DNA from: Hyella patelloides LEGE 07179
GTDB lineage: Bacteria; Cyanobacteriota; Cyanobacteriia; Cyanobacteriales; Xenococcaceae
DNA length: 32,456 nt
Direction: 5' to 3'
NCBI RefSeq assembly: GCF_900659865.1
Contig: NZ_LR213820.1
Span: 1 to 32,456, forward strand
Under the pieces are notes generated by a model that saw only the letters and a program-made list of their open reading frames with translations, made no database searches and was not told the origin of the DNA. Position 1 is the first letter of the stretch. Each line of letters begins with the position of its first letter. The position numbers were made by a program, and so were the translations under genes. Positions 2,309 through 28,406 of this stretch are shown in pieces.

Positions 2309-4375
2309 ATGCAGAAATTTTTTAGTAGTAAAACTTCCTTAGCCGTTGGCATTGGGTTAGCCTCTTCTGTAATCATTGGTTCTATTGGTTCGGCATTACA
2401 CTTTAGAGATCGAAGCGATCTTTCTTCTTCATCGGTTGCTGTTGCTTCTAATGGCTCTTTAGAAAATGGACGAAAAATTCTGGCTTCTGCATCTGATTTA
2501 ATTGAGCAAAATCAGGGAACACAAGCTTTACAACAGCTAAAAAATTTAGAAAAAAATTATCCTCTGCTTGCTCCTTATATTTTGTTAAAACAGGGTAAGG
2601 CGCACAATGTCACCCTAGAAAAAGCCAAAGCTCAAGCAGTATGGCAAAGACTAATTCAAGAGTATCCCGATTCCCCTGCTGTGGCAGAAGCACTATACTT
2701 ATGGGGACAAGAAAACCCTGTTTATTGGGAACAAGCAATTAAGCAATTTCCCCAGCATCCCCGCACTCATCAGATAATTAGAGAATTATTAGCAAAGAAT
2801 CCCAATCAGCCGAAATTAATGACTATTTTGGTTAAATACGACCCCGATGATCGCAGAAATCCGCAAATAAGCGATCGCCTTGTGGCAGAATATAGCAGTC
2901 AGCTAACTCCAGAGGATTGGGCAGCAATTGGTAATATCTATTGGTTAAAGTGGGACTATGGTAAAGCAGGAAAAGCTTATGCTAAAGCACCCCGTACACC
3001 TCGTAATCTTTATCGTGCAGCTAGGGGATATCATTTAGGTAACAGCAAGCAAACTGCCAAAAATTATTATCTTCAGCTAATTAATAACTATCCCAACGCA
3101 TCAGAAACAGGTTTAGGTTTACGTCGTTTAGCTAGTATCGTTAAGAAAACCGAAGCGATTAAATATTTAGATATAGCGATCGCAAATTACCCTGAATCAG
3201 CAGCCGAAGCACTACTGGAAAAAGCCACAATACTCGATGCTTTAAACAGCCCCGTTTCGGCAAAGCAAGCTAGAGAATTAGTTTTAACGCAACACAAAAC
3301 TTCCGATGCAGCAGCCGAATATCGCTGGAAGATTGCTAGTAAAAAAGCCAAACAAGGTGATTTAGTAACCGCTTGGCAATGGGCGCAACCAATTGCAGTC
3401 CACAACCCAGATCATAGTTTTGCCCCCAAAGCTTCCTTTTGGATTGGTAAATGGGCACAAAAGTTAGGGCGTAGTGAAGATGCAACAACAGCTTTTCAAA
3501 CTACCTTAACTGCTTTTCCTCGTTCTTATTATGCTTGGCGATCTGCGGTAGCGTTAGGTTGGGATGTCGGTGACTTTAGCACAGTTCGTAATTTACAGCC
3601 TCAAGTTGTCCCCTCAACTCAGTTTGTCCCTCCTGGAGGTTCTGATATTTTCCAAGAATTGTATCAAGCAGATTTAACGGAAGAAGCTTGGGGACAGTTT
3701 CAAATGGAAATTAGTGGTAAAGAGGAATTAGATGTTTCAGAAGAGTTTACCCAAGGTTTAATGAGGCTACATCGCGGAAAAAATCTTAGAGGAATCAATC
3801 AGATTTGGTTTTTGAGCGACAGAAATCATCCTGAAGATCGACAGCAATGGCAAGCTTTAAAACAAACCCCTCAATACTGGCAGTCTTTATATCCTTTTCC
3901 TTATTCTGATAGCATTCTCAAATGGTCACAAGATCGCAATCTCAATCCGTTATTAGTAACTTCTCTAATTCGTCAAGAATCACGCTTTGAACCTGAGATA
4001 GAATCCTCTGCGGGTGCTTTAGGTTTAATGCAGGTTATGCCAGCCACAGGTAAAAGTGTCGCCCAACAACTAGGCTTACAAAGTTACTCTTTAATTAACC
4101 CCGAAGATAGTATTAAAATAGGCACTTTTTATCTCGATTATACCCACAAAAAATATAGCAATAACTCTATGTTAGCGGTAGCTAGTTACAACGCAGGACC
4201 TCATAAAGTAGCCCAGTGGGTAAATCGATATGGCTTAAAAGATGCTGATGAATTTGTGGAAAAAATTCCTTATCGGGAAACAAAAGGCTACGTTGAATCA
4301 GTGTTTGAAAATTACTGGAATTATATGCTGGTTTACAATCCTGAAATAAGCAAAATGTTGAAAAATATCCAGTAA
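2309..4375 (+). CDS. Soluble lytic murein transglycosylase with TPR-like N-terminal region
   Basis: The product is a periplasmic peptidoglycan-cleaving enzyme of 688 residues that would cut the MurNAc-GlcNAc bond to give 1,6-anhydro ends. An N-terminal hydrophobic stretch (about residues 9-30) is a signal peptide or anchor. Residues about 45-440 are an alpha-helical, TPR/superhelical region like the U/L domains of Slt70. The C-terminal SLT domain (about 530-670) shows the catalytic Glu557 in SLIRQESRFEP, followed by the SSAGALGLMQVMPAT signature and a later ASYNAGPHKV block. Length and order fit the cyanobacterial Slt70-like family. It is transcribed away from the protease gene across a 256-bp divergent spacer. 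The next sequence downstream is a hairpin and then an insertion-sequence remnant. Confidence 0.93.
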   Translation: MQKFFSSKTSLAVGIGLASSVIIGSIGSALHFRDRSDLSSSSVAVASNGSLENGRKILASASDLIEQNQGTQALQQLKNLEKNYPLLAPYILLKQGKAHNVTLEKAKAQAVWQRLIQEYPDSPAVAEALYLWGQENPVYWEQAIKQFPQHPRTHQIIRELLAKNPNQPKLMTILVKYDPDDRRNPQISDRLVAEYSSQLTPEDWAAIGNIYWLKWDYGKAGKAYAKAPRTPRNLYRAARGYHLGNSKQTAKNYYLQLINNYPNASETGLGLRRLASIVKKTEAIKYLDIAIANYPESAAEALLEKATILDALNSPVSAKQARELVLTQHKTSDAAAEYRWKIASKKAKQGDLVTAWQWAQPIAVHNPDHSFAPKASFWIGKWAQKLGRSEDATTAFQTTLTAFPRSYYAWRSAVALGWDVGDFSTVRNLQPQVVPSTQFVPPGGSDIFQELYQADLTEEAWGQFQMEISGKEELDVSEEFTQGLMRLHRGKNLRGINQIWFLSDRNHPEDRQQWQALKQTPQYWQSLYPFPYSDSILKWSQDRNLNPLLVTSLIRQESRFEPEIESSAGALGLMQVMPATGKSVAQQLGLQSYSLINPEDSIKIGTFYLDYTHKKYSNNSMLAVASYNAGPHKVAQWVNRYGLKDADEFVEKIPYRETKGYVESVFENYWNYMLVYNPEISKMLKNIQ

Positions 4376-5897: not shown

Positions 5898-8045
5898 ATG
5901 CCTTACGAACACCTAGATTTATCAACGCCTAAACCTGTATTATCCTGGGCAAACCACGAACTAGACAGTAGAGAAACTCAGATGGCACAAAATGTCGCAT
6001 CTCTACCCTTTGTATTTAAACACGTTGCTTTAATGCCTGATGTTCACTTAGGAAAAGGTGCGTTAGTTGGTTCAGTTATTGCGACTAAAGATGCAGTTAT
6101 TCCTGCTGCTGTGGGTGTCGATATTGGTTGTTTCACAGGAGATACATTGATTCCTGTTGCAGATGGTGTTAATTATTCTCTTCAAGAATTAGCAGAAAAA
6201 GGAGCATCAGTAAATGTTTATTCTTGTACCAGTAGTGGAAAAATTGTAGTTACTCAGGCTATTTCGCGTTTGACCAGACGCCATGCTTCTTTAGTTAAAA
6301 TAGTCTTGGATAACGGAGAAGAAATTAAGTGTACTCCTGACCATCAATTTATGTTGAGAAACGGTACTTATCAAGAAGCAAGCAATCTTAAAATTGGAGC
6401 TTCTTTGATGCCATTTTATTCTAAAACAGACAAAGATGGTTACACTTTAATTCAACAAAATTATTCTGGCAGATGGCAAAAAGCGCACTGGGTAGTAGTA
6501 CGCTCTGGATTGTTAGGAGAAATTCCTAAATTTGTCGGACAAAGAACAATAATTCATCACAAAAATTTTAATCAGTCGGATAATCATCCTAATAATTTAG
6601 AATTTATGGGTCATAAAGATCATTCTGCTTATCATCGTTCTTTAGTAGAAAGAAATAGTCATTGGCAATCTCCAGAATTTGAAACTACTAGAAAGAAAGC
6701 TTTAGCAGCAAAAGCAAAAACTCAAGAAGGCTATGAATTTTATGCCCAAAGAGGAACTAAAAATATTCTCAAATATATGAAAGATAATCCTCAGCATTTT
6801 CTCAAAGCTGTTGCGGATAATGGTGTAAGAGGAAAAGAATATTTAGTCAAGTATAATCAAAGTCCTCAAGGTAGAAAAAAAAGTAAAGAAATAGCTAATC
6901 GTTTGTATACTTGTGATACTTGTGGAGAACAAATCAAAAGCCCTATAGGACTTCATAATCATCGTAAATATGAACATGGTTATAACCATAAAGTTATTGC
7001 GGTGATACCTCTAGAAGAAACAGAAAATGTTTATTGTTTAAGTGTTCCTGAATATAATAACTTTGCCTTAAGTGCAGGAGTATTTGTACATAACTGCGGA
7101 ATGGCTGCGGTAAAAATGCCGTTTCAACAAAATCAATTAGAAGGAAAACTGAAAAAAATTAGACGCGATATTGAAGCTGCTATTCCCGTAGGCTTTAATG
7201 ATAATAAAAATATTGAGAAAGCTGTTACTAATTGGCAAGGTTGGAGAGACTTTAAAGAATTACATTCAGGAGTACAAAGACTAGAAAATAAGGCACTTAA
7301 ACAAATGGGTTCTCTTGGTGGAGGAAATCACTTTATCGAATTGTGTCTTGATACTGATGGTCAAGTATGGTTAATGTTACACTCTGGCTCACGTCATATT
7401 GGTAATCAATTAGCACAATGTCATATTGCCACAGGAAAAGAATTAGCAAAACTCGCTGATAATCAGCTTCCCGATTTAGATTTAGCCTATTTTGTCAAAG
7501 GAACATCAGAATTTGCAGCTTATTGGCGAGATTTACAATGGGCGCAAGACTACGCTAGATTTAATCGCGATGTCATGATGGAGCGTTTTAAAACCATTGT
7601 GGAAAAGCATCTCGCAGGAGGGAAACCCACTAAACCTTTATTATCTGTTAATTGTCATCATAATTATGCAGAACAAGAGCATCATTTTGGTGAAGATGTT
7701 TACGTAACTCGTAAAGGTGCAGTTAGAGCCAGAAAAGATGATTATGGGATTATTCCTGGTTCAATGGGAGCAAAATCGTTCATTGTTAAAGGAAAAGGGC
7801 ATCATGATAGTTATTGTAGTTGCTCGCATGGCGCAGGTCGCTTAATGTCTCGTAGTAAAGCAAAAAAATTGTTTACTGTGGATGATGTAGTCAAACAAAC
7901 CCAAGGAATTGAATGTCGTAAAGATAGAGGTGTTATCGATGAAATTCCTGCTGCTTACAAACCTATTGAAGAAGTAATGAATCAACAACAAGATTTAGTA
8001 GAAATTGTGGCTACTCTCAAACAGGTAGTGTGTGTTAAAGGTTAA
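5898..8045 (+). CDS. RtcB RNA 3'-phosphate ligase precursor interrupted by an intein
   Basis: The host protein is RtcB, a GTP- and Mn-dependent ligase joining RNA 2',3'-cyclic-phosphate or 3'-phosphate ends to 5'-OH ends in RNA repair. The precursor has 715 residues; removing the intein (78-399) leaves 393, a normal bacterial RtcB length. Extein motifs include PDVHLGKGALVGSVI (47-61), VGVDIG followed after splicing by CGM, GSLGGGNHFIEL, LMLHSGSRHIG, SVNCHHNYA and SCSHGAGRLMSR, whose His644 of the precursor is the expected guanylated histidine. Cys400, the first residue after the intein, corresponds to the active-site metal-binding Cys (Cys78 of the spliced product), so unspliced protein should be inactive. 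The next gene downstream is convergent and unrelated; no archease or rtcR gene is in the window. Confidence 0.95.
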   Translation: MPYEHLDLSTPKPVLSWANHELDSRETQMAQNVASLPFVFKHVALMPDVHLGKGALVGSVIATKDAVIPAAVGVDIGCFTGDTLIPVADGVNYSLQELAEKGASVNVYSCTSSGKIVVTQAISRLTRRHASLVKIVLDNGEEIKCTPDHQFMLRNGTYQEASNLKIGASLMPFYSKTDKDGYTLIQQNYSGRWQKAHWVVVRSGLLGEIPKFVGQRTIIHHKNFNQSDNHPNNLEFMGHKDHSAYHRSLVERNSHWQSPEFETTRKKALAAKAKTQEGYEFYAQRGTKNILKYMKDNPQHFLKAVADNGVRGKEYLVKYNQSPQGRKKSKEIANRLYTCDTCGEQIKSPIGLHNHRKYEHGYNHKVIAVIPLEETENVYCLSVPEYNNFALSAGVFVHNCGMAAVKMPFQQNQLEGKLKKIRRDIEAAIPVGFNDNKNIEKAVTNWQGWRDFKELHSGVQRLENKALKQMGSLGGGNHFIELCLDTDGQVWLMLHSGSRHIGNQLAQCHIATGKELAKLADNQLPDLDLAYFVKGTSEFAAYWRDLQWAQDYARFNRDVMMERFKTIVEKHLAGGKPTKPLLSVNCHHNYAEQEHHFGEDVYVTRKGAVRARKDDYGIIPGSMGAKSFIVKGKGHHDSYCSCSHGAGRLMSRSKAKKLFTVDDVVKQTQGIECRKDRGVIDEIPAAYKPIEEVMNQQQDLVEIVATLKQVVCVKG
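6129..7094 (+). other. RtcB intein with HNH endonuclease and zinc-finger insert
   Basis: The intein is residues 78-399 of the precursor (322 residues). It has the N-terminal splicing block starting Cys78 (CFTGDTLIPVADG), block B with CTPDH (Thr146, His149), block F around ENVYCLSVPEYNNFAL and block G ending FVHN, followed by Cys400. This is a complete class 1 set: Cys1, penultimate His398, terminal Asn399 and Cys+1. The middle has an HNH-type motif, IIHHKNFNQSDNHPNNLEF, at about 219-242 with His220/His221, Asn232 and His239. A Cys2His2-type finger (Cys339, Cys342, His355, His360) follows and probably contributes to DNA binding. The same DIG/CGM site is known to host inteins in archaeal RtcB such as that of Pyrococcus horikoshii. 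Splicing competence looks intact; endonuclease activity is inferred. Confidence 0.93.
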
Positions 8046-10428: not shown

Positions 10429-11820
10429 TTATTCGGCTTTGTCTTGAGTGGGGTCTAAGATATAAGTGGGTTGTTCGTTGAAGTGATTCCGTTTTGTTTC
10501 GGGAATCTTTTCTAGTAGATCGTCAAGGTTTGGCATGTTCTCGGTTGTTGGTTCGGCTTGGTCTTGAGTGGGGTCTAAGATATAGGTGTGTTGTTCGTTG
10601 AAGCTATTTCCTTTTGTTTGGGATTTCTTCTCTACTAGATCGTCAAGGTTGGGCATTTCCGTGGTTGTTGGTTCGGCTTGGTCTTGGGTGGGGTCTAAGA
10701 TATAGGTGTGTTGTTCGTTGAAGCTATTTCCTTTTGTTTGGGATTTCTTCTCTACTAGACCATCAAGGTTCGGCATTTCCGTGGTTGTTGGTTCGGCTTG
10801 GTCTTGGGTGGGGTCTAAGATATAAGTGTTTTGCTCGTTGAAGTTATTTCCTTTTGTTTGGGATTTCTTCTCTGTTAGACCATCAAGGTTCGGCACTTCC
10901 TCGGTTGTTGGTTCGGCTTGGTCTTGGGTGGGGTCTAAGATATAAGTGTTTTGCTCGTTGAAGTTATTCCCCGCTTTTTTTCGGATTTCTTTTATCCCAT
11001 CATTAATTTTAGGTAAATTGGGAGTACTAGGGCGAGCATTCATATCCGATACTTGATTTGGTCTATTAGTTGTGCCATCTACGTTAGGGGTTTTAGGAAG
11101 ACTCAATTTAGGATCGATCTTGTTAAATTTTTTGCTTACTCCTTGCGTTGCATCATCGGTGTTAGGCACATCAGAATTATCAAGCTCAGCACTCATGTAC
11201 CGTACTGGATTCGATCTATTCACTGTGTCATCGAATTTAAAAGTCTTGGATGTATTGGATTGTCTTCTGCGACGATTTGCCATCGCTTTTTTGTCTGTAC
11301 CAGTAGCCATACCATTACTATCACGATCGCTAGCAGATGATGAATTTCCAATTCCAAGACCTACTAGCTCTTTCTCAGATCTAGTATAATCAGAAGTTTC
11401 AGTCTTAGAGGAAAGCCCTTTTTTGATCAGAAATGCCAGTAAAGGTATTAACAGACCTAAAGGTAGTAAAAGCAATAACAAATTTCTCGATCCATTTTGG
11501 GAAGTAGGTGCAGCCTCTGTGGTATTGGTTATTGCTTCTGCGTCAGAATTAGTGGAAGTTACTTCTGCTATTGCACCCGAATATTTTTCGGCAAATTTTT
11601 GTTCGAGATTGCGATCCATCTGTTTCCGCTTTTGGCGATCGCTCTTTGGCATCACAGAATCTTCGGTAACACTATCGGGTAGAGACAATGTAGTTTCATT
11701 TTCTGGAGCTTGAGCAACTATCAAGTCTTGATGATTAACAGCGCGGGTGGGTTCGATATAAACTCCAAGGCTCAATAGTAGAGCCAAAGTTAGAGGAAAA
11801 GTCTTTTTCTTGTTTAACAC
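10429..11820 (-). CDS. Repeat-rich membrane/exported protein of unknown function
   Basis: The 463-residue product, beginning at a GTG, has an N-terminal signal-like hydrophobic segment (about residues 8-27). A polar Ser/Thr/Asn-rich region follows, then a strong transmembrane segment (about 112-134, LLLLLLPLGLLIPLLAFLIKKG) and a long low-complexity polar region with basic clusters (NRRRRQSN). The C-terminal 190 residues consist of a 40-residue tandem repeat containing NEQ-TYILDPTQDQAEPTT and an NLD-LVEKKSQTKGN segment. The core occurs five times and the protein ends inside the last copy. I recognise no family. The most likely topology is an anchored protein with a long flexible tail. The repeats are almost identical in DNA, suggesting recent amplification or homogenisation. 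No functional partner is adjacent. Confidence 0.75.
   Translation of the reverse strand: MLNKKKTFPLTLALLLSLGVYIEPTRAVNHQDLIVAQAPENETTLSLPDSVTEDSVMPKSDRQKRKQMDRNLEQKFAEKYSGAIAEVTSTNSDAEAITNTTEAAPTSQNGSRNLLLLLLPLGLLIPLLAFLIKKGLSSKTETSDYTRSEKELVGLGIGNSSSASDRDSNGMATGTDKKAMANRRRRQSNTSKTFKFDDTVNRSNPVRYMSAELDNSDVPNTDDATQGVSKKFNKIDPKLSLPKTPNVDGTTNRPNQVSDMNARPSTPNLPKINDGIKEIRKKAGNNFNEQNTYILDPTQDQAEPTTEEVPNLDGLTEKKSQTKGNNFNEQNTYILDPTQDQAEPTTTEMPNLDGLVEKKSQTKGNSFNEQHTYILDPTQDQAEPTTTEMPNLDDLVEKKSQTKGNSFNEQHTYILDPTQDQAEPTTENMPNLDDLLEKIPETKRNHFNEQPTYILDPTQDKAE
10432..10970 (-). repeat. 120-bp in-frame tandem repeat (4.5 copies)
   Basis: Successive units keep an exact 120-bp period: GGTTCGGCTTG recurs just before 10560, 10680, 10800 and 10920. 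Units differ by only a few bases; the two middle units are nearly identical. The period is a multiple of three, so unit gain or loss keeps the frame. The array encodes the C-terminal tail of the repeat protein, including its stop region. Confidence 0.9.
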
Positions 11821-15963: not shown

Positions 15964-16674
15964 ATGATTTCAATTACACGTAATCTTATCGCAGGGATCT
16001 CTAAGTTATTTCCTGATGCTATATTTTACAAACCAACATCATCGAAAGTAGTTTCATTAACAATTGATGATGTTGGTGGAGTTGACACACTCCAAATTCT
16101 TGATACAATTGATAGTTTTAATGAGAACATACCGAACGATCGAGAACGAATAAGAGCAACCTTCTTTGTAATCACTGACTATTTAGATGATTCAAAAACA
16201 ATGCTCGATGAGATCTTAAATCGAGGACATGAAATTGGTAATCATGGACAAAAAGAACGCCGTCATTCTTCATTAGATACTCTTGAGTTTAGAGCCGAGA
16301 TTGACCAGGCTCATGAAATATTATCTTCTAGTACAATCGATTCAGCAATTAAATGGTTTCGCCCAGGACGAGCATTTTATAACGATGGTATGCTCAAAAT
16401 CTTGAAGGAAAGTACTGTATATTACGATAAATTTGCTTTAGCTTCTATGCTTCCATTAGATACTTATTCAATATTTGATAACCCAAACTTTACAATCAAA
16501 TATACATCTCAATTTATCTTTCCAGGTTCAATTTTGCTGCTACATGGTGGAACACCAAAACGCACCACAAATACAGTAGAAGTTCTTAGTACATTACTTA
16601 CTCAACTTAGACAACAAGAATACAAAGTTGTTACCTTATCCGAACTTTGGGGATCTAGTTTAACTAATAACTGA
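15964..16674 (+). CDS. Polysaccharide deacetylase-like protein (CE4/NodB fold)
   Basis: The 236-residue product has the NodB-homology order: VVSLTIDDVGG (Asp35, Asp36; usual motif TFDDG), ATFFVI, RGHEIGNHG (His94), WFRPGRAFYNDGML (motif 3) and GSILLLHGG (motif 5, catalytic His), ending YKVVTLSEL. It would hydrolyse N- or O-acetyl groups on a polysaccharide. The second metal-binding His, normally four residues after the first, is Glu98 here; the nearest His is 101. A cyanobacterial subgroup with FRPG-W/F-YN in motif 3 looks similar, so this may be group-typical. No signal peptide is evident. It lies between two phycobilin-lyase-like genes but is separated from the first by a MITE. Confidence 0.78.
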   Translation: MISITRNLIAGISKLFPDAIFYKPTSSKVVSLTIDDVGGVDTLQILDTIDSFNENIPNDRERIRATFFVITDYLDDSKTMLDEILNRGHEIGNHGQKERRHSSLDTLEFRAEIDQAHEILSSSTIDSAIKWFRPGRAFYNDGMLKILKESTVYYDKFALASMLPLDTYSIFDNPNFTIKYTSQFIFPGSILLLHGGTPKRTTNTVEVLSTLLTQLRQQEYKVVTLSELWGSSLTNN

Positions 16675-16720
16675 TAAGTTGATTAATGCTTACTGATAAT
16701 TGATAAGTTGATAACTGAAA
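16670..16720 (+). repeat. Short direct repeats upstream of the CpeY-like gene
   Basis: The 50-bp spacer consists of near repeats of CTGATAA-TTGATAAGTTGAT. It is low-complexity and contains the TTG alternative start of the next gene. No function is evident. Confidence 0.4.
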
Positions 16721-20850: not shown

Positions 20851-21282
20851 ATGACTCCATTACCCAATTATCGCCCAAAAAAGATGTCTTTGGGTTCGTT
20901 AGAGACAGAGATCTTAGAAATTATTTGGCAATTAGGCAAAGTGACGGTTAAAGATGTTCACGATCGCATTTTAGCCGATCCTAACCGCGAATTAGCCTAT
21001 ACTTCTGTGACAACAGTATTGCGTCGCTTAACTAATAAAGGCTGGTTAATTTGTCAGAAACAGGAAAAAAAAGGTAGGGCGTTTCAATGGGAAGCCAAAA
21101 TATCTCGTCAACAAGCCCAAGCACTCAAAGCCTATGAACATTTACATGACTTTTTAGCTGTCGGTAATGCAGAAGTTGTGGCATCTTTTGCCGATCATTT
21201 AGACATAGCCAGTGTAGAACAAATAGAAGCGATTGCTGCTAAACTCAAAGCAATACGGAGACAAAGGAAGGAGGGATCGTAA
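20851..21282 (+). CDS. petR: BlaI/MecI/CopY-family regulator, PetR-like
   Basis: The 143-residue winged-helix regulator has GSLETEILEIIWQLGKVTVKDV at the start, VTTVLRRLTNKGWLICQ as the recognition region and a C-terminal dimerisation helix. It is followed by, and overlaps by one base (TAATG), an M56/BlaR1-like protease gene. In Synechocystis this arrangement is the petRP locus (slr0240/slr0241): PetR represses plastocyanin petE and activates cytochrome c6 petJ when copper is scarce, and PetP degrades PetR when copper is present. The call rests on family and gene order; a different BlaI/BlaR-type pair is possible. Confidence 0.75.
   Translation: MTPLPNYRPKKMSLGSLETEILEIIWQLGKVTVKDVHDRILADPNRELAYTSVTTVLRRLTNKGWLICQKQEKKGRAFQWEAKISRQQAQALKAYEHLHDFLAVGNAEVVASFADHLDIASVEQIEAIAAKLKAIRRQRKEGS
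21268..21274 (+). promoter_or_regulatory. Strong Shine-Dalgarno site for the petP-like gene
   Basis: AAGGAGG ends 7 nt before the ATG at 21282 and lies inside the last codons of the upstream gene. This is unusually canonical for this window, where most genes have weak or no SD. It supports translational coupling of the overlapping pair. Confidence 0.75.
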
Positions 21283-22124
21283 TGCATCTAGTCATGATCT
21301 TAACTGCTTTAGTGATTGCTTGGGGATTACGTTCGATTCCCGTTAGTACAAAAGGTGACTGGGAACAAAGATGGCAGCGATCTCTATTTTGCTTCTTATT
21401 TCCACCATTAATTTTAATTACTACTGTGTTAGCCATTATTTTAATGGGCGCACATGGAGAGATGTTGGGCTTACAGGCTGGTGGGTTTAGCTATTGGTTA
21501 GGCTTGGCTTTTATTTGTAGTTTGGGCTTTCATCTTGGCAAATTAGCATATCAAGCTTGGCTTTCTCAGCAAAAAATTACTACTTACCCTGAAAAATCAA
21601 TCCAAAATACCAAAGTAAATTTAATTGATATTGATCTACCTTACATTGCTCAAATTGGATTTTGGCAACCTAAATTAGTCATTAGTCAAGTATTATTAAA
21701 TATTTTAGATGAAAATCAATTAGAAGCTGTTTTAGCTCACGAAAAGGCTCATTTATATTATCGTGACACTTTTTATTTTTTCTGGCTGGGCTGGCTACGC
21801 ACTTGTACCTCTTGGTTAAAGAATACCGAAACTCTATGGGAAGAATTGTTGTTATTAAGAGAAATTAGAGCAGATTTGGAGGCAGCAAAAACCGTAGATG
21901 CTCTTACTTTAGCAGAGTCTTTATTAACAGTGGCACAAACATCTTTACAACCTACTCCTTGTTTTGAAGTGGGTTTTTCCCTGCCATTACCAGATAATCG
22001 TTTATCTCAAAGAATTGATGCCTTAATTAATAATGCAACCCTACCCAACTCGCCTAATTTAGTTTATTGGAGTTGGTTATTACTACTATTAACACCTTGG
22101 GCTACTGTTCCTTTTCACTGTTAA
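21282..22124 (+). CDS. petP: M56/BlaR1-like membrane metalloprotease, PetP-like
   Basis: The 280-residue integral membrane peptidase has hydrophobic segments at about residues 2-18, 34-56, 69-92, 161-175 and 262-278. The zinc motif HEKAH is at residues 153-157, with a downstream Glu194 in LLREIRADLEAAK as a probable third ligand. It lacks the penicillin-binding sensor of BlaR1. Its start overlaps the petR-like stop, so the two are translationally coupled. By analogy with Synechocystis PetP it would cleave the PetR-like repressor in response to copper. That substrate is inferred from family and order. Confidence 0.78.
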   Translation: MHLVMILTALVIAWGLRSIPVSTKGDWEQRWQRSLFCFLFPPLILITTVLAIILMGAHGEMLGLQAGGFSYWLGLAFICSLGFHLGKLAYQAWLSQQKITTYPEKSIQNTKVNLIDIDLPYIAQIGFWQPKLVISQVLLNILDENQLEAVLAHEKAHLYYRDTFYFFWLGWLRTCTSWLKNTETLWEELLLLREIRADLEAAKTVDALTLAESLLTVAQTSLQPTPCFEVGFSLPLPDNRLSQRIDALINNATLPNSPNLVYWSWLLLLLTPWATVPFHC

Positions 22125-22932: not shown

Positions 22933-23059
22933 AATTCGATCGCTCAAGTAAAAAATTTAAGTAGCTATAATTTAACAGCTAAAAATGTCAATAAGATGAC
23001 AACGCTATGACATTTTGACGATCCAAAGAAGTTTTGGTTAGTTGTGATACAAAATCTGA

Positions 23060-23125
23060 GAGGCTGTTTATAAAATAAATCTTAAGATACTCCAAACCTT
23101 TAATTTTTGTTTAACAAACAGTCTC
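23060..23125. repeat. 66-bp inverted-repeat element
   Basis: GAGGCTGTTTA at 23060-23070 and the inverted form of GAGACTGTTTG ending at 23125 flank an AT-rich core. The ends resemble those of IS5/IS1031-type elements or their small derivatives. No target duplication could be verified. Confidence 0.35.
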
Positions 23126-23299
23126 CGATCCAATACTTCTCGTTTAAGCCTCAATAAGGCTTGAAAAGTGGGCTTGAATATCTTGAAACTTCATACATAA
23201 AAATTCCTATAAAATCCTTAATTAAGAAGTATTAAAATCCGATCGATTTTGCAACAAGCAAAATAACTTTGGTCTCGAAGCAATAAACTCTGTTTAAAA

Positions 23300-23331
23300 T
23301 GATAGTATCATCAGTAATGATATTGCTATCA
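23300..23331. promoter_or_regulatory. Double palindrome, probable TetR operator
   Basis: Two adjacent inverted repeats use the same half-site: TGATA-G-TATCA at 23300-23310 and TGATA-TTGC-TATCA at 23318-23331. They end 9 bp before the regulator's ATG at 23341. Four half-sites in 32 bp next to a TetR-family gene suggest autoregulation. The regulator's frame is open through them to an ATG at 23299, but the resulting leader is hydrophobic and unlike a TetR N-terminus, so this is best read as regulatory DNA. Confidence 0.65.
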
Positions 23332-23340
23332 CTAAAAATA

Positions 23341-23991
23341 ATGAGTCAAAAAGACAAAAAAGAAAAGCGAGCTAGTCGTAAATCGCGCCGTCAAGCAGAG
23401 ACTAGAAAAAGCTTACTAGATGCTGCACGGAAAGTCTTTGCTGTAACAGGTTTAACATCTGCAACGATCGCCCAAATAACCGAGACAGCAGATCTAGGTT
23501 TTGGGACTTTTTACCTGCACTTTGCATCGAAGGAAGAACTATATCTTGCTGTCTTAAAGGAAGGATTTGCCGAATTAGACAAAGAGTTAAAACAAATTCT
23601 TGATGAGGCTAGAGAGTCTCAATATTCTGGAAATGAAATTATCGAAATTGTGATCGCCATATTTTTTCGCTTTGCAAGAGAAAACCGCGATTTATTTCAA
23701 GTTGGGTTTGCAGGTTTAGATGCGGGAATGCAAATAGGAATTAGCCTACGCAAACAATATGCAGATTGGTTCAGCGAACTTTTAAAAGAAATCCACCCTG
23801 TAGAAATTCCAGAATCCCAATTAGAACTATTAAGTACGTCTATTGTAGCGATGGTCAGTCGTACTGCTGTTTGGTGGATGCAGCAAAAGGAAGAATCTGA
23901 GCCAGATTTCCTTTCTCTGGAACAAGCGATCGCTGTAGTTAGCCGTTTTGCGATCGCAGGATTAACGGATTTTTATTCTATTTCTAACTAA
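23341..23991 (+). CDS. TetR-family transcriptional regulator
   Basis: From the ATG at 23341 the product has 216 residues. It has a basic N-terminal extension (KDKKEKRASRKSRRQAETRK) and then the TetR DNA-binding domain: LLDAARKVFAVTGLTSATIA, QITETADLGFGTFYLHFASK (recognition helix and FYxHF signature) and EELYLAVL. The C-terminal ligand-binding domain (about residues 70-210) is unassigned. The P450 gene follows after 31 bp, so the regulator probably controls it and senses its substrate or product. A longer start at 23299 is rejected because palindromes lie there. Confidence 0.9.
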   Translation: MSQKDKKEKRASRKSRRQAETRKSLLDAARKVFAVTGLTSATIAQITETADLGFGTFYLHFASKEELYLAVLKEGFAELDKELKQILDEARESQYSGNEIIEIVIAIFFRFARENRDLFQVGFAGLDAGMQIGISLRKQYADWFSELLKEIHPVEIPESQLELLSTSIVAMVSRTAVWWMQQKEESEPDFLSLEQAIAVVSRFAIAGLTDFYSISN

Positions 23992-25425: not shown

Positions 25426-26844
25426 CTATTGCTCGCTTTCAGCATTGCCCATATTGATTGGTAAACAAACAATAAAACAAGTTTTACCTGGTTCGGATTC
25501 TAAAAAAATCGCTCCACGATGGCGGTTTTCGACGATGCGTCTAACAACATCTAAACCCAAACCCGAACCTTCTCCCACAGATTTGGTGGTGAAAAAGGGT
25601 TCAAAAATTCGAGATTGAACTTCTAAAGGAATACCTATTCCAGAGTCAATGATCTTTACAACTATACGATCGCTTTTTTTCAGAGTGATAATTTCCACTG
25701 TGCCTTTGCCTGACATTGCAGCGATCGCATTATCGATTAAATTAGTCCATACTTGATTGAGTTCGCTACCGTAAGCGGGGATTTGGGGAAGATTGCGATC
25801 GTAAACTCGCTTTACTTTAACCCCATATTTTAATTTGTGGGATAGTAATTGTAGGGTATCTTCGATTCCTTGATGAATGTCTACCTGTTGTCTTGCACCC
25901 CGATCTAAGTGAGAATAAGAGCGCATTGATTTAACTAATTCAGAAACTCTTTCTGCGCCCCGCAAACCTGATTGAATCATCATCATTACATCGAAAGATA
26001 AAGCCAACCAGCGTATCCCCATATCTCTTAATTCCGTAGAATCATCGCGCCATCTTGCCATTAGCTGTTCTAAAAGCTCAGGTTGTATATTGGCTGTTGC
26101 TAAAGGTTCGACTAATTTACCTGCGTCTTTGACTCCATAATCTTCTAACCAATCCAGTAAAGCATCTTCGCGATCCATTAAGGTTAAGGGTTCTATACGA
26201 TGATTGTTAAGCAAGAATTCATAACCATCGTCTCTAACTTGCTGCCATTGCGCTGTATGCTCATCTTCTACGTTACGCTGTCCGTAAACTAAATTCATGC
26301 GTTGCAATTCTAAAGTAGCTGGAATCAAGCTTTGTAGAGAACGCACTACCGCAGCAGCAGGGTTATTAAGTTCGTGAGCCAAACCCGCAGCTAAAGTTCC
26401 TAATGCTGCCATTTTCTCGCGATTGCGGATAAATGACTCTAATCCTCTAAGACGGTTTCGTACTGCCTGAAAAATGGTTCTTTCAAAGTTACGGCATTCA
26501 TGAAGTACGATCAGAAAGTTTTCACTACTAATTTCGTAAAGACGACAATCGGTATAGGTTTGTAAAGTAACAGGGACTAAATCATCAGTTAAAATCTGAA
26601 TTTCTCCAAAGAAAGCAGGAGCATTATGTTGTCCTACAGGCATTTGAATACCTTCACTCAAGCGAGTAATGCCCATATTACCTGAAATTAGAATAAAAAA
26701 TCCCCTGTGGATATCACCCTCTCTTACTAAAACTTCTCCTTTTGTGAGCTTAATTTCTTCAGCGCGATCGCATATCCAATTAAGACGAGATTCAGGAAGT
26801 TGTTGAAATAATTCTAATTGTAAAAGTTCTTCAATACACAACAT
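25426..26844 (-). CDS. Histidine kinase with N-terminal cNMP-binding domain
   Basis: The 472-residue cytosolic sensor kinase has a CRP-type cyclic-nucleotide-binding fold at about residues 10-125 (GEVLVREGD, GFFILISGNMGI, FFGEIQILTDD). It then has an H-box with His157 in LAAGLAHELNNPAAAV, a helical region and the HATPase domain: NLIDNAIAAM (N box), DSGIGIP (G1) and GEGSGLGLDVVRRIV (G2). No transmembrane segment is present. The cyclic nucleotide or redox ligand is unknown. No response regulator is adjacent, so it is an orphan kinase. It is convergent with P450 no. 1 and lies about 200 bp downstream of P450 no. 2 in the same orientation. Confidence 0.9.
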   Translation of the reverse strand: MLCIEELLQLELFQQLPESRLNWICDRAEEIKLTKGEVLVREGDIHRGFFILISGNMGITRLSEGIQMPVGQHNAPAFFGEIQILTDDLVPVTLQTYTDCRLYEISSENFLIVLHECRNFERTIFQAVRNRLRGLESFIRNREKMAALGTLAAGLAHELNNPAAAVVRSLQSLIPATLELQRMNLVYGQRNVEDEHTAQWQQVRDDGYEFLLNNHRIEPLTLMDREDALLDWLEDYGVKDAGKLVEPLATANIQPELLEQLMARWRDDSTELRDMGIRWLALSFDVMMMIQSGLRGAERVSELVKSMRSYSHLDRGARQQVDIHQGIEDTLQLLSHKLKYGVKVKRVYDRNLPQIPAYGSELNQVWTNLIDNAIAAMSGKGTVEIITLKKSDRIVVKIIDSGIGIPLEVQSRIFEPFFTTKSVGEGSGLGLDVVRRIVENRHRGAIFLESEPGKTCFIVCLPINMGNAESEQ

Positions 26845-27041
26845 TATTAGTTACCAGTTATCAGTTATCATTTATCAGCTAGTAGGTTGGTTTGAAGCAT
26901 GAAACCCAACAATCATAGAATACTAAGGATCGTGAATTAAATAACTTACAGATTAGATTAGGTAGGGTGTTGTTAGCGTAAGCTTAACGCACCGATATTT
27001 TAATTTGGGATTTTATTAAATTCTTATTTCTAAATAACTTC

Positions 27042-28406
27042 TTAAGCTAGTTTATTTTTTATTCTCATTTTAAAGCTAGATGGAGGAGCAAGGGTTAAAC
27101 CACGACGTACGGGAAACAGGGGATGGTTGCTAGTTAAATCCAATTGAAAGCGGGATAAAACGGTAGTGGTGACGAGCTTCATTTCTAATAGTGCTAATGC
27201 CGAACCTATGCAGCGACGATTTCCTCCACCAAAGGGAATATATTCATAAGGAGAATAAGTTTTTTGTAAAAATCTTTCTGGCTTAAACTGTTCTGGATCG
27301 GGATATAAATCTTCTCTATGATGTAAAGAATAAATAGAAACCATTAACCAAGTTTTTGGCTCTAAATCGTATCCCATAACCGATATTGGCTGAGTTAAAA
27401 TACGTCCGAAAGCCCCAGCAACAATGGGATAAATTCGTAAAGTTTCAGAAACTATTGCATCTAAATAAGTTAAATTGTTAATTGTTTTATAATCTGGATT
27501 TTCTCCCACAGAATCTAATTCAAAACGCAACTTATCTTGAACTTCTGGTAGATAATGAATCCAATAAAAAAGCCAAGCTAAAGCAGAAGCCGTAGTTTCG
27601 TGTCCTGCAAACAATAAAGTTATTAATTCATCGTGTAATTCTTCATCTGTCATTCCTTCGCCATTTTCATCTTTAGCTAATAGCAATAAACTAAAAATAT
27701 CCCGAAGTCCTGAAGTTCCTGAAGCTAATAATTCCCTTCTTTCGGCGATTTCCGCATAAATTAATTGTCTAATTTCTTGTTTTAAAAGCAAAAAACGACC
27801 CCAAGGACTAAATTTCCCCCAGTCTTTTTGGAGAAAAGAGAAAAACATAAAGCTAGAGCTTAAAGGAGTATTAAAAATATCTAGAAGTGCCGTTAATAAC
27901 TCTCTCAAGCGATCGTATCTCGTTCCAGAATCAATCCCAAAGACCACACTTAACATCACTCGCAAAGTAATTTCTTGCATTACGGGACGAACTGTAAAAG
28001 CTTTATTGGGTTGCCAATCTGCAATAACTTTATTGGTGATAGCCACTATTTGATCGCTACATTTTTGTAAAGATTCCCCATGAAAAGGAGGCATTAACAA
28101 ACGTCGGCGATTTTTATGTTCTTTCCCATCTAATAACAGCAAAGAATTATCTCCAACCAAGAAAGTTAACATCTTATTACCTCTACCTACTTCAAATTTA
28201 TCAGTAGAAGCAGTAAAGATATTTTCAATCGCTTGGGGGTTGCTAGTCATCACAGTTGGAGGCGCATTTTTCAATTTAAGTTGATAAAAATCTCCATATT
28301 GGCGAGCGCGATCTGTAATAAAATCTACAGGACGTAAAATAGCTTTGATTCGACGCATAATTAAGCGTAAACCAGAAGCAGCTTCGAGTGTGGGTATTGG
28401 TTTCAT
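27042..28406 (-). CDS. Cytochrome P450 (second), CYP110-like
   Basis: The 454-residue P450 has FAGHETTASALAW (I helix), the K-helix SETLR and the heme loop PFGGGNRRCIG with Cys399. Its N-terminal pattern (PIPTLEAASGLR, RQYGDFYQLKL, HKNRRRLLMPPFHGE) resembles the cyanobacterial CYP110 group, which oxidises fatty acids or terpenoids. The ATG at 28406 is well placed. It precedes the histidine kinase by about 200 bp and follows the pseudokinase gene by under 100 bp on the same strand. The substrate is unknown. Confidence 0.92.
   Translation of the reverse strand: MKPIPTLEAASGLRLIMRRIKAILRPVDFITDRARQYGDFYQLKLKNAPPTVMTSNPQAIENIFTASTDKFEVGRGNKMLTFLVGDNSLLLLDGKEHKNRRRLLMPPFHGESLQKCSDQIVAITNKVIADWQPNKAFTVRPVMQEITLRVMLSVVFGIDSGTRYDRLRELLTALLDIFNTPLSSSFMFFSFLQKDWGKFSPWGRFLLLKQEIRQLIYAEIAERRELLASGTSGLRDIFSLLLLAKDENGEGMTDEELHDELITLLFAGHETTASALAWLFYWIHYLPEVQDKLRFELDSVGENPDYKTINNLTYLDAIVSETLRIYPIVAGAFGRILTQPISVMGYDLEPKTWLMVSIYSLHHREDLYPDPEQFKPERFLQKTYSPYEYIPFGGGNRRCIGSALALLEMKLVTTTVLSRFQLDLTSNHPLFPVRRGLTLAPPSSFKMRIKNKLA

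Follow-up and report, generated by a model that had tools for sequence, protein, structure and literature searches.

The closest described counterparts of the locus studied here are two Bacillus gene pairs, FatR–cyp102A3 of Bacillus subtilis and Bm3R1–CYP102 of Bacillus megaterium, whose regulators are displaced by fatty acids. According to excerpts of the FatR report (PMC3814354), FatR forms one operon with cyp102A3, its operator precedes the regulator gene, and chromatin immunoprecipitation on a chip (ChIP-on-chip) revealed a single genomic site. CYP110 of Anabaena 7120 is reported to bind long-chain fatty acids and to rise with hexadecane, and the words "repressor" and "regulator" are missing from the main text of that paper (PMC1079853).

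Here we describe an array of four half-sites that stands directly before a tetR–P450 gene pair in the cyanobacterium Hyella patelloides LEGE 07179. The stretch analyzed, called the window throughout, comprises 32,456 nucleotides (contig NZ_LR213820.1, positions 1 to 32,456 of the forward strand) of a genome assembly of 8.06 Mb in 675 contigs that is 98.1% complete (G000). From a comparison of upstream regions, we consider it quite likely that positions 23300–23331 are the operator of the downstream tetR gene, where two TetR dimers would repress their own tetR–P450 operon until released by a ligand. The features in question are the following.

23300..23331, no strand assigned: candidate operator array of four half-sites, TGATR-N4-YATCA-N4-TGATR-N4-YATCA, matching at 20/20 specified positions
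23300..23313, no strand assigned: dyad 1, TGATA and CATCA around the spacer gtat, proposed site of one TetR dimer (putative binding)
23318..23331, no strand assigned: dyad 2, TGATA and TATCA around the spacer ttgc, proposed site of the second dimer (putative binding)
23341..23991, plus strand: tetR regulator, 216 amino acids, start codon picked from the ortholog L001
24023..25375, plus strand: cytochrome P450, 450 amino acids, p450 Pfam domain only

The initial annotation of this DNA had placed four half-sites directly before a TetR–P450 pair, and the gene assignments bear this out. The regulator carries a TetR_N helix-turn-helix (HTH) domain (PF00440, 45.6 bits against a cut-off of 24), which makes it a member of the TetR family, and the enzyme matches PF00067 with 318.7 bits. 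The P450 translation shows ExxR (as EAMR), AGHETT, and FPFGDGSRICIG, which we take to be P450 motifs. Both genes lie on the same strand with a gap of 31 bp and are predicted to form an operon, as in the FatR and Bm3R1 systems. The coordinates confirm that the last half-site ends 9 bp before the regulator's ATG at 23341. The frame could alternatively open at an ATG at 23299, a start that the initial annotation had named as incompatible with its proposal. In L001, a Prochloraceae cyanobacterium metagenome-assembled genome (MAG) whose tetR is 73% identical, an in-frame TGA starts 21 nt before the equivalent ATG, with no ATG, GTG, or TTG in between. Translation from 23299 is therefore unlikely, and the operator most likely lies outside the TetR protein.

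The searches of the order and of the two phyla for relatives of this regulator scored only the first 7–10 candidates per genome, so that weaker relatives may have been missed. Orthologs at E ≤ 1e-15 were found in 2/291 sampled genomes of the order, and at E ≤ 1e-30 a sample of 386 genomes from the phylum yielded a single one, in the window's own genome. The second genome of the order (G024) was taken as that of L001, with the tetR match at C269:40073-40717 in both. Further relatives came from Chloroflexota: the TetRs of L002–L005 (Ktedonobacterales/Chloroflexi MAGs) are 40–42% identical, and the next nearest are L019 and L020 (36–40%). Matches at 1e-25 occurred in 18/47 genomes of the class of G588, and five of 400 genomes in a sample of the phylum Chloroflexota reached 1e-40, all five already known. 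A virus scan returned no relative, and in the 50 plasmid records listed by tblastn the best identities were 26–37%, in partial alignments that never spanned 80% of the query.

Comparison of these loci revealed a regular register. The window's half-sites are separated by three spacers of 4 nt (gtat, gtaa, and ttgc), and when seven loci were scored with the half-site TGATR/YATCA, derived from the window itself, the 4-4-4 register was the best of 972 spacer triplets with 135/140 (next 127; mean 90, sd 8.6). The maximum among 200 shuffled sets was 96/140. The five Chloroflexota loci alone, without the window and L001, again gave 4-4-4 as the best register (96/100; next 90). L003, a near-copy of L002, counts among the eight clade members but did not enter the score over seven loci; L006–L013, which are re-fetched window and L001–L005 loci, were dropped before the counts, and L014–L016 entered the HTH comparison and the tree, outside the array scoring. 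In-register scores were 20/20 for the window, L004, L005, and L019, 19 for L001, and 18 for L002, L003, and L020, and each of these eight outscored 300/300 shuffles. The distance from array to start codon is 7–24 bp in all eight (two cyanobacterial and six Chloroflexota loci), with GGAGG-like sequences visible by eye in between in L004, L005, and L019. The 28 symmetrized half-sites read T 27, G 28, A 27, T 25, and then A 16 or G 12.

The same in-register scoring found the array absent before all 17 more distant TetRs (L021–L037), whose upstream regions score 10–13/20, a level that at least 61/300 of their own shuffles reach. A P450 match, in some cases weak, lies in the flank of 12 of these 17, and TetR–P450 pairing is therefore wider than this operator. 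Three distant Ktedonobacteria TetR–P450 pairs (L021, L024, and L025) show a different palindrome, CTGAATTATAATTCAG, over TATAAT at the −10 position with a TTGAC-like hexamer upstream, which is perhaps a second operator class with the same layout.

The eight array-bearing TetRs form one clade with a support of 97/97, in a tree drawn with an arbitrary root, for which the program issued a warning: the long L014–L016 branch meets the array clade. All eight share ATIAQIT...GFGTFY in the HTH (the L005 row of the alignment starts several residues past its start codon). GFGTFY occurs in 0/20 other rows, where we found GVGTFY, AMGTFY, or AVGTFY in 17 (L021–L037) and SKGGFY in 3 (L014–L016). These data suggest that operator and HTH type occur together, with shared descent as a caveat.

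The array is nearly unique in its genome. With at most one mismatch, the pattern occurs once in each of 14/291 sampled genomes of the order (reversed control, 6 sites in 2 genomes); the sole zero-mismatch site is the window array. In seven whole genomes that carry this TetR, searched with at most three mismatches, the tetR-upstream site was the best in six and tied best in one. It has no mismatch in G000, G589, G617, and one of two G588 loci, one in G024, and two in G587, the second G588 locus, and G605, where it ties with a C868 site inside open frames. The initial annotation had proposed to look for the motif upstream of other genes of the same genome. With the 4-4-4 pattern and at most three mismatches, that search gave 14 sites against 11 in the reversed control, and patterns with spacings of 1 and 4 were run alongside; since the counts are close, no regulon is detectable in G000. 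Sites and control sites numbered 8 and 10 in G024, 2 and 0 in both G587 and G588, and 1 and 0 in G589. Six of seven near-match loci (L048, L088, L054, L057 (G000), L082 (G605), and L083 (G617)) fall within stop-to-stop frames 90 codons or longer, such frames not being shown to be genes. The seventh, L056 (G024:C417:8019-8047), is a two-mismatch match to a 1-4-4 spacing that lies outside frames of at least 90 codons in the retrieved locus and may be a second site in G024. Short direct repeats with TGATA/TATCA were also noticed elsewhere in the window, at 26858–26878 (three TTATCAG/T heptamers before a histidine kinase open reading frame (ORF)) and at 16667–16718 (a 22-bp repeat); these are simple repeats and not the four-half-site array.

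The geometry of the array suggests how TetR might be arranged on it. Within each inward N4 dyad the G-to-G step is 11 bp (37.2 Å). Excerpts of the structural reports give a separation of 37.0 Å for the recognition helices of the DNA-bound FadRSa dimer, together with a Gly–guanine contact (PMC6449355), and 38.2 Å for DNA-bound CprB (PMC4150764). Based on this agreement, we infer one dimer on half-sites 1–2 and another on half-sites 3–4, with centers 18 bp apart, and the strict phasing makes cooperativity plausible. In the proposed mechanism, two TetR dimers without ligand would sit side by side, one per TGATR-N4-YATCA dyad, and block transcription of the tetR–P450 operon, whereas binding of a small molecule, perhaps acyl or otherwise hydrophobic, would release them so that the P450 is made. 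Of the initial proposal of an autoregulatory operator, the predicted TetR-type operator before its own tetR–P450 operon, with room for two dimers, is supported by the comparison, and autoregulation is consistent with it.

Promoter-like elements, identified by eye with a 17-nt spacer, point to repression in five Chloroflexota loci. The hexamer pairs are TTGACT/TATCAT in L002, TTGACA/TATCAT in L004, and TTGCGT/TATCAT in L005, and in all three the −10 element TATCAT begins with half-site 2. In L019 the pair TTGACG/TATAAT directly adjoins the array (0 bp), and in L020 the pair TTGACA/TATATT precedes it by 5 bp. This would be the layout of a repressor.

We also modeled the regulator. The predicted structure, built from five sequences, has nine helices and a mean predicted local distance difference test (pLDDT) score of 86.1, and it shows the all-helical TetR fold, with Z 16.2–18.6 in the 50 matches listed, mostly TetR-family chains. 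Foldseek placed the model nearest to FasR, and its first 15 rows include FasR 6o6p, 6azh, B. subtilis FadR 3whb, and DesT 3lsj. The sequence scored 48.9 bits against an NCBIfam cut-off of 330 for FasR and 42.8 against 200 for FadR, below both. That the ligand is hydrophobic or an acyl compound is conjecture, and neither the Foldseek nor the VIA-align ranking was used to predict it.

Several observations weigh against the proposed autorepression by two dimers. A scan of 22950–23400 found no sigma-70-like promoter pair near the window array, so promoter occlusion is not visible there. TetR-like proteins can also activate, as excerpts of PMC7382501 state for FasR. The array is palindromic and folds as RNA (z −3.5), and the members of the clade are related by descent and not independent. 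Sites exceed the reversed control in G605 (7 vs 1) and G617 (11 vs 6), where further sites are possible, and the 12 other genomes of the order with a one-mismatch site may hold other users of the pattern. As to the acyl ligand class, VIA-align puts EthR first (18.6), by about 1.5 Z, above the acyl-CoA regulators FasR (17.1) and DesT (17.5). A local autoregulatory operator would still be the best reading of the array.

The alternatives are partly compatible with this reading, and the likelihoods we attach to them need not add up to certainty. Activation by TetR from the array, or use of the array by another regulator, appears unlikely. The scan leaves the promoter unplaced relative to the window array, and the best Foldseek match, FasR, is described as an activator; on the other hand, the −10-like elements of the five Chloroflexota loci lie inside the array or just before it, as predicted for a repressor. 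We give slightly less credence to a single dimer that would occupy the outward-facing dyad in the middle (YATCA-N4-TGATR) and leave the outer half-sites as flanks. This dyad is present in the array and half-site 2 retains its ATCA in 7/7 loci, but its G-to-G step of 7 bp (23.7 Å) is short for a TetR dimer, and the outer half-sites are conserved as well.

A shade less probable again is the parse of the initial annotation, in which two palindromes with spacers of 1 and 4 nt would bind two dimers in two geometries. This parse is literally present in the window: TGATA occurs at 23300–23304 and 23318–23322 and its complement TATCA at 23306–23310 and 23327–23331, so two readings fit the site at 23300, TGATA-N1-TATCA (23300–23310), which falls inside dyad 1, and TGATA-N4-CATCA (23300–23313). 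L001 likewise has one N1 and one N4 palindrome, in mirrored order. The composite (spacers 1 and 4, gap 2–12 nt) occurs once in each of only 2/291 sampled genomes of the order and never in the reversed control; one of the two sites is the window array, and the other precedes the single further tetR ortholog that this sample yielded. However, the triplets 4-4-1 and 1-7-4 score 127 and 125 compared with 135 for 4-4-4, and the parse needs order and gap to differ between the window and L001, whereas the 4-4-4 register aligns the two without a gap through the array. The N1 palindrome is missing in some Chloroflexota upstream regions, and its spacing would set the conserved G's 8 bp (27.0 Å) apart. 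The two different spacings thus give way to a single conserved register. An operator inversion between the window and L001 (spacers 1-4 vs 4-1) was considered and rejected, because the 4-4-4 register aligns both gap-free and the array form is its own reverse complement.

It is very improbable that the array acts as an RNA hairpin or attenuator in a leader transcript. The fold has a minimum free energy of −13.0 kcal/mol, reached by 1/200 shuffles, and one long hairpin forms in 5/7 arrays. Nevertheless, what is conserved in the half-sites is their sequence and not covariation between paired bases. In spacers 1 and 3, through which a longer stem would run, 15/28 positions pair; the arrays of L001 and L004 each give two separate hairpins; and the array pattern follows the HTH type of the TetR encoded behind it. 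A chance cluster in AT-rich DNA is hardly credible: TGATA is slightly enriched in the window (106 observed vs 85 expected) and the single TGATANTATCA palindrome is unspecific, with 22 exact sites in the genome, but the five TGATR/YATCA half-sites found inside 36 bp were matched in 0/1000 dinucleotide shuffles of the 150-bp upstream region, and the array is conserved in two phyla.

The enzyme encoded behind the operator varies. A P450 adjoins tetR in the window and in L002, L003, L004, and L005, the latter four being 38–40% identical to that of the window. L001, where regulator and operator look intact, keeps a P450 remnant of about 131 residues (83% identical; the truncated gene spans 3661–4059, 132 amino acids) whose frame meets two TAG stops over 149 residues, and the nearest uninterrupted P450 in its genome lies on another contig (54%). 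In L019 and L020, an Esterase_PHB protein follows tetR, 18 bp away or overlapping. Because the same clade and operator precede an esterase in these two loci and only a P450 remnant is left in L001/G024, the suggestion in the initial annotation that the effector is a P450 substrate does not hold in general.

The patchy occurrence in two phyla suggests transfer of the tetR cassette between them. We tentatively extend this to a broader view, which we regard as possible but somewhat doubtful: the TetR lineage shared by Cyanobacteriota and Chloroflexota may be a regulator-plus-operator cassette that moved between phyla with its architecture fixed, four like half-sites every 9 bp forming two separate dimer sites 18 bp apart, while the enzyme was swapped or lost. 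If so, the ligand would belong to a compound class common to P450 and esterase, perhaps a lipid or ester, and would not be the P450's own substrate; the enzyme swap would narrow the ligand to what both enzymes have in common.

The rest of the window holds several unrelated features. An RtcB RNA ligase gene (5898–8045, plus strand) apparently contains an intein (PF14890 at residues 88–399, best RtcB stretch from 394). A 120-bp tandem repeat at 10432–10991 (4.7 copies, 91% matches) lies within a minus-strand ORF that gave no Pfam match at E 0.001. At 20851–22124 (plus strand), a BlaI-type repressor (PF03965) precedes an ORF for a membrane peptidase (M48 scoring above the cut-off, M56 below it), resembling a BlaI–BlaR1 pair. 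Finally, 25426–28406 (minus strand) encodes a histidine kinase with a cNMP-binding domain and a second P450, 29–33% identical to the first.

It is rare that a TetR operator can be deduced confidently from sequence. Here, comparison yields an operator model at single-base level together with an HTH signature that fits it, by which orthologous cassettes become recognizable and testable, and it points to a compact, probably inducible cyanobacterial switch for an uncharacterized P450. Among the literature matches listed (titles and abstract openings), we found no description of this operator.

Compared with the pair-of-dimers operators of QacR, CprB, and FadRSa, the array is likewise long enough for two dimers, and the reported helix spacing fits its 11-bp G-to-G step (excerpts of PMC6449355 and PMC4150764). 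It differs from the QacR type, in which two dimers bind overlapping repeats (excerpts of PMC6449355): in the 4-4-4 register, 23300–23313 and 23318–23331 do not overlap, and the four half-sites are alike. The acyl-CoA-responsive TetR-family regulators FasR, FadR, and DesT resemble the window TetR as Foldseek matches of its predicted model, and are only about 18–23% identical to it. Like the window enzyme, CYP110 is a cyanobacterial P450 (PMC1079853, in excerpts). The nearest counterparts remain FatR and Bm3R1 with CYP102, which share the gene layout of a TetR-family repressor with its P450 and, for FatR as described in the excerpts, the operator before the regulator gene and a single genomic target. 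FatR-type operators lie between the transcription start and the regulator's start codon; the array stands just before that codon, and the scan of 22950–23400 gave no promoter. The window P450, with its single domain, is unlike CYP102, which carries a reductase part, and, unlike FatR and Bm3R1, two relatives of the window TetR precede an esterase. The FatR operator is described as one 18-bp palindrome, whereas that proposed here comprises four half-sites over 32 bp. We thus regard the locus as a probable autoregulated TetR–enzyme operon of known layout with a differing, four-half-site operator.
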